DNA from: Candidatus Nitrosocosmicus sp.
GTDB lineage: Archaea; Thermoproteota; Nitrososphaeria; Nitrososphaerales; Nitrososphaeraceae
Reading direction: 5' to 3'
Assembly (NCBI GenBank): GCA_029194465.1
Contig: JARFXS010000004.1
Location: forward strand, 1-64,000
DNA: 64,000 bases
Shown: one piece after another, positions 12,096-19,377 of the stretch
How the letters are laid out: every line of letters starts with the position of its first letter
Numbering within the stretch: the first letter of the stretch is position 1
Translations under genes and position numbers: made by a program
The notes under the pieces: generated by a model
The model's input: the letters and a program-made list of their open reading frames with translations, nothing else
Databases searched by the model: none
What the model was told of the DNA's origin: nothing

Positions 12096-12488
12096 TCATC
12101 CAGTTGCATTAGCGATTAATCTGTCTAACTCATTATCAGCATTTTGACAATCATTTAAGGCCTCATCAGTGTTATCATTTTCTATTTGTTGAATACAACT
12201 TTCCAAATGAGTGTCTACAGTCTCTAATGATGGTTGTTCATTATCTGTTTGACTTGAACTAGATTGATCATTGTTAGATTGATCATTGTTAGATTGATCA
12301 TTGTTAGATTGATCATTGTTAGATTGATCATTGTTAGATTGATCATTGTTAGATTGATCATTGTCAGAATCTTCTGTGGTAGCAAATACTGGGCTAATAG
12401 AACCTAAGGTGGATACTGCTGATGCACCGATCATCAGTACAGAAAATGCTACAATAAAGATGCTTAAATTTCTAATTTTGTTCATCAA
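12096..12488 (-). CDS. Exported protein with (NNDQS)n tandem repeat
   Basis: 130 residues. A signal peptide ('LSIFIVAFSVLMIGASAVS', cut near 'PVFATTE') is followed by an acidic linker, then about seven copies of a five-residue N-N-D-Q-S repeat, then a helical C-terminal domain with two Cys ('HLESCIQQIENDN', 'LNDCQNADNELDRL'). The repeat is probably a flexible spacer that holds the C-terminal domain away from the membrane or S-layer. The C-terminal domain is unassigned. Confidence 0.65.
   Translation of the reverse strand: MMNKIRNLSIFIVAFSVLMIGASAVSTLGSISPVFATTEDSDNDQSNNDQSNNDQSNNDQSNNDQSNNDQSNNDQSSSSQTDNEQPSLETVDTHLESCIQQIENDNTDEALNDCQNADNELDRLIANATG
12261..12365 (-). repeat. Minisatellite, seven 15-bp units
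   Basis: Seven uninterrupted, identical plus-strand units of 'TAGATTGATCATTGT' fill 12261-12365 inside the exported-protein gene. Each unit encodes five residues, so copy-number changes keep the frame. Confidence 0.95.
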
Positions 12489-14622: not shown

Positions 14623-15819
14623 TTGACAATTAATGTATATAAACCCAAAAAGAGTGATGATATCTCACATACGTTTTCCATTTATTCTAATAGTCAAGAG
14701 AAATTAGAAGCTGGTCTTCAATTTTTGATTGAGGGTTTGGAAAATGATGAATCCATTTCGTTCGTAACAGATGACCTTTCTAAAGAAGAAATTATAGAAA
14801 GACTAAAAAAGATTTGTCAATTTCGATTCAATATCTCTACTCTAGTAAATGATGGGGTAATTACTCTCTTATCGAGTACCCAATGGTATTTTTCTGGTAA
14901 CATGTTAGAAAAGGGTAAGCTGTCGCCCTCTGGTGGGATACCAATGTGCAAAAGTCTTTCTCCGATCCGTAATGATACTAGTATGAAGAATGAAGATAAT
15001 ATCAAAGGTAGTGATTTTATTTTACCAATGGACAGCAAGAAAAGATTTCGAGCTTTTTACGATATGAAACCGTTTTTTGAAAAGAGATATTACGAGGCGT
15101 TGATCAACTATGAATCAACACAAAAAGGTCCTTCCAATCCAGCACATACTTTGTGTGCTTATGAAATAGGTTTGATGCAAGAGATAAGTCCAGAAACCTT
15201 TAGAACATTGGTAAAGAATCATACACTAATAAATGAAATGTACTATGATGCATTGATTGATCCTAGCACCAATATGCATGTCATTCTTTTATATGATAAA
15301 CAAGAGGATTTAGATAAAGCGGTTTCAACATACATTAACGAAGGCCTAAAACGAGGTCAGCTATGTATCCACGCCTCTGTTAGTTTAGCAAATAAAAGTT
15401 ATTTGGAAAACTTTTCATCGCAGATTACAAATTATCAAGAAAACCTTGAAAAAGGAAATCTTATTGTTATTGACTTGGTACCTTATTATGTTAATGCGAT
15501 GGAAGGAAATTTAGAATCTTTTAATAAATTGAAAGAAGAAATGATTTTTAATACCAATCAAGACCCAAACAGAAAGGACAAGCACATACGTTTAACCGCA
15601 GATTGTGCTACCCTGCTGTTTAAGAACAAGCATTTTGAGGAATGCATCAATCTGGAGAATTGGTGGCACGAAAAACCTTTTGACGGTTCATATGTGTGTC
15701 CATATCCAAAGTCATTACTCGAACGATATCCATTTAATGCTTTTCTTTCAAGACTCATTCATAATCATGATGTAATTATAGATAGTAATGGAAAATTGAT
15801 TCACGAGTATATGTTATAG
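14623..15819 (+). CDS. Protein with two MEDS (DcmR-like sensory) domains
   Basis: 398 residues without membrane segments or a DNA-binding domain. The N-terminal half ('HTFSIYSNSQEKLEAGLQFL', 'DESISFVTDD', 'FRAFYDMKPFF') and the C-terminal half ('HVILLYDKQEDLDKAVSTYI', 'GQLCIHASV', 'IRLTADCATLLF') both have the order of the MEDS domain, a RecA/KaiC-like sensory domain known from methanogens and methylotrophs. No Walker A is obvious, so the ATPase site seems lost. It probably senses a small molecule or partner. It starts at TTG 14623 and ends 72 nt before the methyltransferase at 15891, on the same strand. Confidence 0.65.
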   Translation: MTINVYKPKKSDDISHTFSIYSNSQEKLEAGLQFLIEGLENDESISFVTDDLSKEEIIERLKKICQFRFNISTLVNDGVITLLSSTQWYFSGNMLEKGKLSPSGGIPMCKSLSPIRNDTSMKNEDNIKGSDFILPMDSKKRFRAFYDMKPFFEKRYYEALINYESTQKGPSNPAHTLCAYEIGLMQEISPETFRTLVKNHTLINEMYYDALIDPSTNMHVILLYDKQEDLDKAVSTYINEGLKRGQLCIHASVSLANKSYLENFSSQITNYQENLEKGNLIVIDLVPYYVNAMEGNLESFNKLKEEMIFNTNQDPNRKDKHIRLTADCATLLFKNKHFEECINLENWWHEKPFDGSYVCPYPKSLLERYPFNAFLSRLIHNHDVIIDSNGKLIHEYML

Positions 15820-15890: not shown

Positions 15891-16706
15891 TTGAATAATT
15901 CAAACCAGAGCATCAGGAAAAGATGGACCTTAGGTGATTACAGAAGTATCGGCAAAGTTATTTCTCCAGTCTCAGCTAAGCTTGTAAGACTTGTTAATGT
16001 CAAACCTGTGGATTCTGTTTTAGATGTGGCGTGTGGATTTGGTAACACTGCAATAACTGCACGCAGAGCCGGTGCAAAGGTGACCGGTATAGACATTACC
16101 CCTGAGCTTTTAGCTCAAGCAAAGGAGGAAGAGTCCATTGCAAAAGTCAGTGAGATTGACTGGAGAGAGGGTAACGCTGAAAGCCTTCCATTTGAAGATG
16201 AATCATTTGATATTGTATTGTCAACGTTTGGTCACATGTTTGCATTAGACCAAAAGGCAACGGCATGCGAGATGCAACGGGTTCTCAGGAAAGGCGGGCG
16301 CATAGGCTTTGCTACTTGGTCTCCTGAGCTTGCATGGGGAAGAATGTATGATACAATCTCAAAGTACATACCCCCTGTTCAAAATAACCAATCAATGACA
16401 CCTCCTCTTCCGTCCCCTATGCAATGGGGAATCCCGGACAAAATTCAAGAACTATTGTGTGACGTGAAGAATATATTATTTGAAAGGGATACCGTTGAAT
16501 ATGCTATCCTTAGTCCAAATCATTATTGGCAGGAGATGGCAACGAAATCAGGTTCACTGATTCAACTAATTCAGGCACTTGAAGAGGAGGATAAAATGGA
16601 AAAAATAGAATTGATTAGACAAGACTATCTTAAAACCTTAGAACCATACATACGTGATAATATAGTGCGATTAGGTTATTTGCTAACAATAGCAACAAAG
16701 GTATAA
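15891..16706 (+). CDS. Class I SAM-dependent methyltransferase (Methyltransf_11)
   Basis: 271 residues. SAM motif I 'VLDVACGFGNTA', acidic loop 'VTGIDITPELL', motif II 'LPFEDESFDIVLSTFGHMF' and 'RVLRKGGRIGFATW' are all intact. The C-terminal ~110 residues form a family-specific cap ('ILSPNHYWQEMATK', 'LGYLLTIATK'). It is a paralogue of the gene at 18535 across its whole length. Small-molecule methylation is likely; the substrate is unknown. Start is TTG 15891. It lies 72 nt after the MEDS protein and may be co-transcribed with it. Confidence 0.8.
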   Translation: MNNSNQSIRKRWTLGDYRSIGKVISPVSAKLVRLVNVKPVDSVLDVACGFGNTAITARRAGAKVTGIDITPELLAQAKEEESIAKVSEIDWREGNAESLPFEDESFDIVLSTFGHMFALDQKATACEMQRVLRKGGRIGFATWSPELAWGRMYDTISKYIPPVQNNQSMTPPLPSPMQWGIPDKIQELLCDVKNILFERDTVEYAILSPNHYWQEMATKSGSLIQLIQALEEEDKMEKIELIRQDYLKTLEPYIRDNIVRLGYLLTIATKV

Positions 16707-16788: not shown

Positions 16789-17028
16789 CTAATTCTGTTT
16801 TAAGGTCGCATCAAAGCGCATTCCGGTTTCAACCTTGATTTTCTTATTTTCACCCAATAATTTGCTCTTCTTCCTCTTTCTATCTAAAACCAGGTAAATA
16901 TTATACGCAAGAGATGAAAATCCAGCTAATTCTAATAATTCGGATGCAGTGATGGCACTCCTATCCAGAACTATTGCTTTATCATTTACATACACTTTGT
17001 TTTCTCTCTCAACTTTCGTTAATTCCAT
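16789..17028 (-). CDS. Multiubiquitin-like beta-grasp protein
   Basis: 79 residues from ATG 17028, placed by a TATA-like 'ATTTATAAA' (17053-17062, centre about 30 nt upstream); ATG 17052 is the alternative. 'KVYVNDKAIVLDRSAITASE', 'LLELAGF', 'YNIYLVLDRKRKK' and 'KIKVETGMRFDATLKQN' follow the strand-helix-strand order of the Multi_ubiq (PF14452) beta-grasp domain. In bacteria this domain occurs with E1, E2 and JAB genes. None of those is near here, there is only one domain copy, and the C-terminus is QN and not GG. It may be a protein-protein adaptor. The call is from motif memory. Confidence 0.55.
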   Translation of the reverse strand: MELTKVERENKVYVNDKAIVLDRSAITASELLELAGFSSLAYNIYLVLDRKRKKSKLLGENKKIKVETGMRFDATLKQN

Positions 17029-17315
17029 AATATGATGTAGTACTGTGATCATAATTTATAAAACTAGCACAAGAGTGGGTCTCAAATTAGCGATATGAAA
17101 ACCTTGTTAGGTTCTACGTTTTTAGATCTCTTCGACAAACCAATTTCAGAGGGTGTGACTAGTCATTACATTCATGCTAAATAAATAAACATCTTGAATA
17201 TTTTCACAAAATCAGTTATCAGACTATGTTACTGGTTAAGTATTTTATAGAAATATGATAGCAATGAGTATCCAAACTATGATATAATAAATTTTATCTA
17301 CACATTATGATTATA

Positions 17316-17781: not shown

Positions 17782-18144
17782 CTAGCTCAAGAAAAGTTTA
17801 TGCATATTTTCTTTTGTCAAATGCAATTTGTAAATCTGATCATTATTGAGGATAAATACCTGATCATGTAACTCGAACATTTCTATCATTTCTGTTGTAG
17901 AAGCTTTAAACATGTTATTCAACTCATATGCACAAAATACTAGCCCCTCTAATCTATTCTTGTCATATTCTTTTTCAAGATAGCAAGCTTCGCTGACCGA
18001 CGAGTACGCAATATCATTGATGAGGAAATCAAGTAGACATATTTCTTTATTATTCGAATTCTGAGAAATATTTTGTAAAATGTCTTTAAGATATTTCAGA
18101 GGATCTTTTTTGAGATGACCTATGTGGTGTAATTGTCCCATCAA
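17782..18144 (-). CDS. Hypothetical protein, or frameshifted C-terminus of the RHH protein
   Basis: 120 codons that begin inside the RHH gene with a 59-nt overlap. Such an overlap is long for archaea. Shifting frame at the A6 run near 18108-18115 would join the RHH chain to 'KDPLKYLKDILQNISQ', giving one protein of about 215 residues. The stretch is alpha-helical, then beta ('HDQVFILNNDQIYKLHL') with no recognised family. I list it separately because the continuous reading stops in both frames. If it is one gene, this part would be its ligand- or partner-binding domain. Confidence 0.5.
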   Translation of the reverse strand: MMGQLHHIGHLKKDPLKYLKDILQNISQNSNNKEICLLDFLINDIAYSSVSEACYLEKEYDKNRLEGLVFCAYELNNMFKASTTEMIEMFELHDQVFILNNDQIYKLHLTKENMHKLFLS

Positions 18145-18442
18145 ACCATTCTAGTTTTTCTAGTACCTCTGTAACTGAAGAATTAGATGACCGGACGAAA
18201 CATCTAAACCATTCACCTTCCTTGGCCAATTTATCTAATGATTTGATCATTCGAATAACAGATTCCGCGTTATCGTATAGAAGTAAATGATGCCGTTTTG
18301 GGATTTCGTCTTGTTTTTTTAGCCACTGATCCACGGCGTCCTTTACAATTGAATTTATGGAAACACCCTTCTTTTTTGATTGATCGCCAAGTTGAGAGTG
18401 AATCTCATCGTCGAAACCTCGGATTATCATGTTACGGGCCAT
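18086..18442 (-). CDS. Ribbon-helix-helix (CopG/Arc-type) regulator
   Basis: 118 residues. The first ~45 ('NMIIRGFDDEIHSQLGDQSK', 'GVSINSIVKDAVDQWLKK') are a textbook ribbon-helix-helix: a beta strand that inserts in the major groove, then two helices. A helical region with 'ESVIRMIKSLDKLAKEGEW' follows. It is divergent from the methyltransferase at 18535. A TATA-like 'ATATAAG' (minus strand, about 18464-18472) is centred about 26 nt before its ATG, and a palindrome (18473-18494) directly abuts it. RHH dimers bind such sites, so it probably represses itself and the methyltransferase. Confidence 0.75.
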   Translation of the reverse strand: MARNMIIRGFDDEIHSQLGDQSKKKGVSINSIVKDAVDQWLKKQDEIPKRHHLLLYDNAESVIRMIKSLDKLAKEGEWFRCFVRSSNSSVTEVLEKLEWFDGTITPHRSSQKRSSEIS

Positions 18443-18472
18443 ATCTTTATGAAATCTTCAGAGCAATATAAG

Positions 18473-18494
18473 TGATGATATCTAGATATCATCA
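18473..18494. promoter_or_regulatory. Operator-like palindrome 1
   Basis: A perfect 22-bp palindrome with arms 'TGATGATATC' and 'GATATCATCA' around a TA centre. It lies between the TATA boxes of the divergent RHH and methyltransferase genes and abuts the RHH TATA element. Confidence 0.8.
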
Positions 18495-18503
18495 AAAGAA
18501 AAC

Positions 18504-18512
18504 TATTTATAT
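18504..18512 (+). promoter_or_regulatory. TATA-like element of the methyltransferase gene
   Basis: 'TATTTATAT' is centred about 27 nt before ATG 18535, so the transcript should be leaderless. Its 3' end overlaps operator 2. Confidence 0.55.
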
Positions 18513-18536
18513 GGTGATATCACGATATCACCATAT
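18509..18536. promoter_or_regulatory. Operator-like palindrome 2
   Basis: A 28-bp inverted repeat with arms 'ATATGGTGATATC' and 'GATATCACCATAT' around an AC centre. It shares the GRTGATATC-NN-GATATCAYC core with palindrome 1. It covers the end of the TATA box through to the start codon, so a bound protein would block initiation. Confidence 0.8.
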
Positions 18537-19377
18537 GAGTCAATTAAATCTATCAAATAAAGAGAATGAATCAAGTGAAAAAGAGAGTTTGAAAAATACA
18601 AAAACCGGGAATGTTTGGAAACTAGGGGATTATCGTAGTATCTCTACAATGCTTCCTTCCATATCTTCTCACCTGATGAGATCAATAAATGTTCGATCTG
18701 GAGAGGATGTTCTTGACATCGCATGCGGAAATGGTAACACTGCAATTACGGCCAGGAGAATAGGTGCAAATGTAACTGGAATTGATATCACGACGGAACT
18801 TTTAGAACTAGCTGCAGAAGAAGCTAAAATTGCCCAGGTCGATGGGATAACATGGAAGGAGGGTGATGCCCAGAGTTTACCCTTTGAGGATGAATCCTTT
18901 GATGTTGTTCTTTCAACCTTTGGACACATGTTTGCTCCTCAACCAGACCTCGTTGCCAAAGAAATGATTCGAGTGACAAAGAAAGGTGGTAGGATAGGAT
19001 TCGCAACTTGGCCGCCCGAGCTTGCCATTGGATCAATATTTAAGGCAAATGGTAAACATTTGCCTAAACCAGTTAATAGTCCTCCCTCTCCAATACTTTG
19101 GGGTGTCCCTGAAGTAATAGAAAAAAGATTAAATGAAGTATCAAGAGTGCATTTTGAACGTGGAACAGCATTCTTTCCGATTCTTAGTCCAAATCACTTT
19201 TGGGAGTTTATGAGTACAAAGTATGGACCATTGATTAATACTATTCAAATATTAAATAATCGGGGTGATTCTAGTGAAACCGATTCACTTAGAGATGATT
19301 TCTTGAAAGCAATAGGTCCTTATGTCTTAGAAAATAGTATTGGATTGGGTTACCTATTGACCATTGCAAAAAGATAG
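18535..19377 (+). CDS. Class I SAM-dependent methyltransferase (paralogue of 15891)
   Basis: 280 residues from ATG 18535. The longer frame from 18472 would translate the operators and is rejected. SAM motifs are 'VLDIACGNGNTA', 'VTGIDITTELL', 'LPFEDESFDVVLSTFGHMF' and 'VTKKGGRIGFATW'. The C-terminal cap ('ILSPNHFWEFMSTK', 'LGYLLTIAKR') matches its paralogue. The ~30-residue N-terminus is polar and absent from the paralogue. The two strong palindromes in its promoter indicate tight control by the divergent RHH protein. Substrate unknown. Confidence 0.85.
   Translation: MSQLNLSNKENESSEKESLKNTKTGNVWKLGDYRSISTMLPSISSHLMRSINVRSGEDVLDIACGNGNTAITARRIGANVTGIDITTELLELAAEEAKIAQVDGITWKEGDAQSLPFEDESFDVVLSTFGHMFAPQPDLVAKEMIRVTKKGGRIGFATWPPELAIGSIFKANGKHLPKPVNSPPSPILWGVPEVIEKRLNEVSRVHFERGTAFFPILSPNHFWEFMSTKYGPLINTIQILNNRGDSSETDSLRDDFLKAIGPYVLENSIGLGYLLTIAKR

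Follow-up and report, generated by a model that had tools for sequence, protein, structure and literature searches.

How is the methyltransferase gene that starts at 18535 on the plus strand of a Candidatus Nitrosocosmicus sp. genome controlled, and does the divergent gene for an RHH protein, with its start codon at 18442 on the minus strand, encode the regulator? The question arose because two palindromes separate the two start codons. We analyzed the surrounding 64,000 nucleotides (hereafter the window; GenBank assembly GCA_029194465.1, contig JARFXS010000004.1, positions 1 to 64,000) together with related loci from other genomes.

Palindromes and promoters between the divergent genes

The first palindrome, operator 1 (TGATGATATCTAGATATCATCA, 18473-18494, no strand assigned), is perfect over 22 bp and abuts, on the upstream side, a TATA-like element of the regulator gene (18465-18472, minus strand). 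The second, operator 2 (18509-18536, also without strand), consists of two 13-bp arms, 18509-18521 and 18524-18536, that are 100% complementary and 2 bp apart; it lies between a TATA-like element of the methyltransferase gene (18506-18512, plus strand) and the start codon of that gene. Both operators are conserved in relatives. The TATA-like elements were assigned from the sequence and by inference from archaeal promoter spacing. Since they stand about 26 bp 5' of the two ATG codons, the transcripts of both divergent genes may be leaderless. The sequence-only reading had placed the palindromes correctly, the first adjoining the TATA box of the RHH gene and the second running from the end of the methyltransferase TATA box through the ATG.

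Each palindrome can also be read as two GATATC boxes with an 8-bp period. Exact matches to GRTGATATC-NN-GATATCAYC were found in the window only at operators 1 and 2, and 3 matches were obtained with up to 3 mismatches, compared with a shuffle mean of 0.15. A genome search had been proposed as a check, and it gave the same picture: the exact core TGATATC-NN-GATATCA occurred only at the two operators in the 3.3-Mb genome, and a search with 2 mismatches returned 46 further places per strand, compared with 10 in the control. The idea of a plasmid-borne cassette was rejected, as the intergenic region had no match among plasmids.

The plus-strand gene (18535-19377) encodes a UbiE-like class I SAM methyltransferase of 280 amino acids (PF08241, 3.6e-23), and orthologues starting at the same position confirmed its start codon. 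Family searches for its substrate gave generic matches only, and the low quality of the structure model (pLDDT, 37.5) made it unusable. A second methyltransferase (15891-16706, plus strand), 53% identical to the first, lies directly downstream of a gene for a stand-alone MEDS-domain protein (14623-15819, plus strand; PF14417, 9.8e-23), an adjacency kept in genomes G013, G012, and G014. No operator was found when this pair was searched, in agreement with the earlier remark that the copy at 15891 has no such palindrome upstream. Two other neighbors were recorded. An 87-amino-acid protein with a Multiubiquitin domain (PF14452, 1.9e-6) is encoded at 16789-17052 on the minus strand, an unusual companion for a regulator/methyltransferase cluster, and a 130-amino-acid open reading frame (ORF) at 12096-12488, also on the minus strand, begins with a signal-like segment and contains seven tandem repeats of the SNNDQ type.

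An RHH protein with a MEDS-type C-terminal domain

The RHH ORF in the window has 118 amino acids and is a fragment of a longer regulator. A DNA alignment with four relatives showed that a homopolymer at 18106-18111 (minus strand) is longer here by one base, and this extra base splits the gene into two ORFs. The N-terminal part (18086-18442, minus strand) contains the RHH domain (residues ~1 to 45) and the start of the second domain before it ends early by the frameshift, and the C-terminal part (17782-18144, minus strand) continues the second domain in another frame. The full regulator would have about 219 amino acids; homologues were found in 35 of 101 related genomes, and intact ones mostly have 218 to 260 amino acids. 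Because the two halves share 96% and 92% identity with the intact gene of G013, the latter value referring to the C terminus, the frameshift could reflect a lesion of recent origin or else a mistake in the draft assembly (263 contigs). The activity of the regulator in this genome is therefore uncertain.

It is a real possibility, although one to which we give somewhat less than an even chance, that the regulator is a pseudogene here and that the methyltransferase is expressed constitutively or is under the control of a second RHH-MEDS protein. Such a second gene is present in the same genome on contig C228 (locus L160, positions 1 to 1951), where it is cut by the contig end. That locus carries TGCTATC/GCTAGC operators and a divergent gene for an Rv2258c-like methyltransferase. 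The split caused by the inserted base, the existence of this paralogue with GCTATC/GCTAGC operators, a broken regulator gene in one copy of G012 (Dino_bin19), and its loss from G009 all fit a pseudogene; a homopolymer error in a draft of this kind, together with the high identity of both halves to G013, fits sequencing error equally well. Beside the methyltransferase, only remnants of the regulator were found in G009 and G007.

The N-terminal region bears an RHH sequence signature, with PF09274 (ParG) exceeding its cutoff. The best RHH matches were PF09274 (4.9e-6) and PDB entry 1p94 (E = 0.003), and a weak FitA-like similarity was also present. An AlphaFold model of the orthologue from Nitrosocosmicus sp. 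SS (pLDDT, 82.5) displayed a helical pair followed by an α/β domain. The two helices of the RHH region span residues 12 to 25 and 29 to 44, and the N-terminal strand was unresolved in this monomer model.

For the C-terminal domain, Pfam searches returned nothing above noise, and PF14417 did not match the C termini of three family members at E values up to 1. We therefore compared profiles using hhalign, one built from 13 regulator C-terminal domains and the other from 14 MEDS domains found via the stand-alone MEDS gene of the window. The two aligned over 139 columns with a probability of 95.3% (P = 2e-8), and ten column-shuffled decoys and one reversed decoy reached at most 0.5%. Foldseek matched the structure model to solved structures that include adenosylcobinamide kinase, KaiC CI domains, and Elp456, with modest TM scores of 0.4 to 0.5 and, for the latter two, E values of ~1e-4 to 1e-3; by this model, the domain has a KaiC/RecA-like fold. 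MEDS is listed as an inactive KaiC domain in PMC5847659, which also names MEDS, MEDS-REC, and REC-MEDS architectures in Nitrososphaera/Nitrosocosmicus. According to PMC11507031, MEDS as part of a helix-turn-helix (HTH) regulator typifies proteins binding simple hydrocarbon derivatives. We predict that the regulator is an RHH domain fused to a divergent MEDS domain, a sensory domain with an inactive KaiC-like fold, and not a small RHH protein; the sequence-only reading had missed the second domain. A MEDS-type domain would thus accompany both methyltransferases of the window, since the second one directly follows the stand-alone MEDS gene. No description of an RHH-MEDS fusion was found in a full-text literature search of incomplete coverage, so that its novelty is likely rather than proven.

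Operators and partner genes across the family

To see how far this arrangement extends, we compared 58 different RHH loci found in the Nitrososphaerales and the Nitrosopumilales (Nitrososphaeria), counting TGNTANC-NN-GNTANCA with up to 2 mismatches as an operator. Two operators were present in 51 of the 58 loci, compared with 0.17 in shuffled upstream regions, and in 48 of these 51 the distance from start to start was 36 to 39 bp (0.01 in shuffles). A palindrome count blind to the motif still gave two in 39 of the 58 loci, versus 4.4 in shuffles. The divergent RHH/methyltransferase pair itself was kept in eight Nitrosocosmicus loci. Conservation of the pair and its palindromes in relatives had been named as a check of the sequence-only reading, which their absence from orthologous loci would have contradicted; because they are conserved there, that reading withstands the check. 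In a wider search of the phylum, matches occurred in 17 of 398 sampled genomes and in two families only. So far, the RHH-MEDS family has turned up only in ammonia-oxidizing archaea.

The half-sites vary across the loci (GATATC, GCTATC, GCTAGC, and GGTACC). Operators within a locus were more alike than operators of different loci (165 versus 126 ± 5, reached in 0 of 5000 randomizations), a test inflated by relatedness. In one clade, represented by L137 and L162, GGTACC-type half-sites occur in both operators and the RHH strand has the sequence KDLHIR; histidine takes position 6, which is I, L, or V in most members. This joint switch of both operators and the RHH β-strand points to the RHH protein as the binder of the operators. 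A tree-aware test of the broader association between RHH strand and half-site type, with traits defined post hoc, went in the expected direction and was not significant.

The evidence also bears on whether a different regulator binds the palindromes, with the RHH-MEDS gene as merely one of its targets. This would account for two methyltransferase genes, at L083 and L081, that have operators without an intact adjacent regulator; operators persist in this way in G009 and G007. In G007, however, an RHH-MEDS paralogue might act in trans, the operators accompany the RHH gene through many partner types, and in one clade both sites and the RHH strand change jointly, making another binder very unlikely. 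At L081 (G009), three GATATC boxes stand in a row, one every 8 bp, and the regulator is reduced to ~13 codons. Overall, the comparisons strongly support the operators as the DNA target of the RHH-MEDS protein.

The gene opposite the regulator was far from constant. It encodes OsmC in 20 of the 58 loci, a UbiE-like methyltransferase in 9 (all Nitrosocosmicus), an O6-alkylguanine-DNA alkyltransferase (PF01035, PCHR motif) in 9, an ArsR-like HTH protein in 7, an Rv2258c-like methyltransferase in 3, an α/β hydrolase in 1, and an SCO4226-like protein in 1; no partner was recognized in 8. Mapped on the regulator tree, the partner labels required 16 changes, at least 6 of them for OsmC alone, forced by well-supported branches. 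Partners have thus been swapped repeatedly while the twin-operator layout persisted. Small ORFs were seen at some loci: at L130 and L132, the operators and the OsmC gene are separated by one of ~55 to 72 amino acids, and a similar one precedes the methyltransferase gene at L137.

These partners decide against a toxin-antitoxin-like pair of an RHH antitoxin and a methyltransferase toxin, a reading that we rejected as hardly credible. RHH domains are common in antitoxins and a weak FitA-like similarity exists here; against this, the genes are divergent instead of forming one operon, the C terminus resembles a sensory domain, and the partners, all ordinary enzymes, differ from genus to genus.

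Sites were also found away from the regulator. As a rule, the Nitrosocosmicus alkyltransferase gene is not linked to the regulator. Upstream of this gene, exact operators were present in G003 and G010, the genome that contains the window has a site with 1 mismatch (TGATATCATGCTATCG), and G013, G012, and G006 have sites with 2 mismatches. The OsmC gene of G015 has two sites without an adjacent regulator. Lone exact sites in G001, G002, G008, and G011 fall within the coding region of a gene for an HD-type hydrolase and probably arose by chance, and a lone exact site in G013 has no ORF nearby. In G012, an operator-like pair is located upstream of a gene for a small secreted-looking protein (L173, ~1501-1560, and the end of L093), and a similar operator-like site is found near a third methyltransferase copy.

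Because the partners differ and unlinked genes carry the operator, the switch is neither self-contained nor tied to the methyltransferase, as had been proposed. The sequence-only reading had also considered a resistance role; OsmC, the O6-alkylguanine transferase, and the hydrolase point rather to damage repair or detoxification.

Proposed mechanism and relation to known systems

We consider it probable (about 0.7) that the regulator is an autoregulated one-component RHH-MEDS repressor that acts at twin operators and senses a small molecule through its MEDS domain. RHH dimers, which place a two-stranded sheet in the major groove of inverted repeats, would bind both palindromic operators in the shared promoter region; the operators are inverted repeats, as such binding demands. 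Occupation of operator 1 would hinder TBP/TFB, and autorepression is expected because this operator directly adjoins the TATA box of the gene that encodes the regulator. Occupation of operator 2 would block polymerase entry and repress the methyltransferase gene, as its position between the TATA-like element and the partner's start codon implies. Binding of a small molecule to the MEDS domain would change the affinity for DNA and so switch the gene pair. The Nitrosocosmicus regulator probably also controls the unlinked O6-alkylguanine-DNA alkyltransferase gene, and in other ammonia-oxidizing archaea the same type of regulator faces different protective enzymes, among them peroxide reductases and DNA-alkylation repair proteins. 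Comparison of the loci establishes the domain architecture, its conservation, the geometry of the operators, their change along with the RHH strand in one clade, and the sites in trans; we infer the binding itself, the direction of regulation, and the existence and nature of the ligand. The autoregulated repressor of a methyltransferase postulated earlier is thus consistent with the conserved divergent pair and its two operators, but the partner is not fixed.

The protein could instead be an activator at these operators, or an activator at sites upstream of the TATA box and a repressor at sites downstream of it. Archaeal activators also bind upstream of the TATA box, which is where operator 1 and the sites at the unlinked alkyltransferase genes lie. 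A precedent for both roles in one RHH protein is AmrZ, an activator and a repressor according to PMC3325190. Operator 2, which is kept in 51 of the 58 loci, occupies a repressor position between the TATA box and the partner's start codon, and we regard activation as unlikely.

The set of partners (OsmC, alkyltransferase, hydrolase, and methyltransferases) suggests, as a hypothesis, a response to alkylation, peroxide, or electrophile damage. More tentatively, and with the balance leaning against it, RHH-MEDS proteins might be the sensors of an alkylation/electrophile-stress regulon, with the MEDS domain sensing reactive hydrocarbon derivatives, e.g., from side oxidation by ammonia monooxygenase. 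One operator code would then serve the genes for OsmC, the O6-alkylguanine-DNA alkyltransferase, the hydrolase, and the methyltransferases, and the partners would have been reshuffled from genus to genus.

Little is known about the specific transcription regulators of ammonia-oxidizing archaea. The family offers a lineage-wide regulator whose operator code is readable, a set of targets predicted in trans, and a sensory domain related to proposed sensors of hydrocarbon derivatives. The partners that recur in it hint at a stress circuit responding to alkylation or peroxide damage, and the natural change of specificity from GATATC to GGTACC makes protein-DNA recognition directly testable.

Among known systems, DcmR-type and other HTH-MEDS regulators (PF14417) similarly join a DNA-binding domain to MEDS beside genes for small organic molecules, and MEDS has been described as sensing simple hydrocarbon derivatives (PMC11507031). 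The DNA-binding domain here is RHH instead of HTH, so that the combination is not HTH plus MEDS, and the MEDS domain is too divergent for detection by PF14417. The MEDS, MEDS-REC, and REC-MEDS proteins of Nitrososphaera/Nitrosocosmicus share the inactive KaiC domain and the organisms, and the stand-alone MEDS gene of the window is of the same kind; they have no RHH domain and are listed in PMC5847659 among two-component systems, not with operators. ParG, a plasmid partition protein, and FitA, an antitoxin, gave the best RHH sequence matches, but both are without a MEDS domain, and this locus has neither a ParA partner nor a toxin. An RHH antitoxin would form an operon with its toxin gene, whereas here the gene is divergent and its enzyme partners vary. 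MetJ and other RHH repressors that act on short palindromic box arrays resemble the regulator in their RHH domain and in an operator made of hexamers every 8 bp, three of them at L081. The box spacing of MetJ is comparable to this period. Family and structure profile searches with the regulator gave no MetJ match, the partners are not methionine genes, and the sensory domain is unrelated. Known parts, RHH and MEDS, are thus combined in a new way, in a lineage-specific RHH-MEDS family with a conserved operator code.
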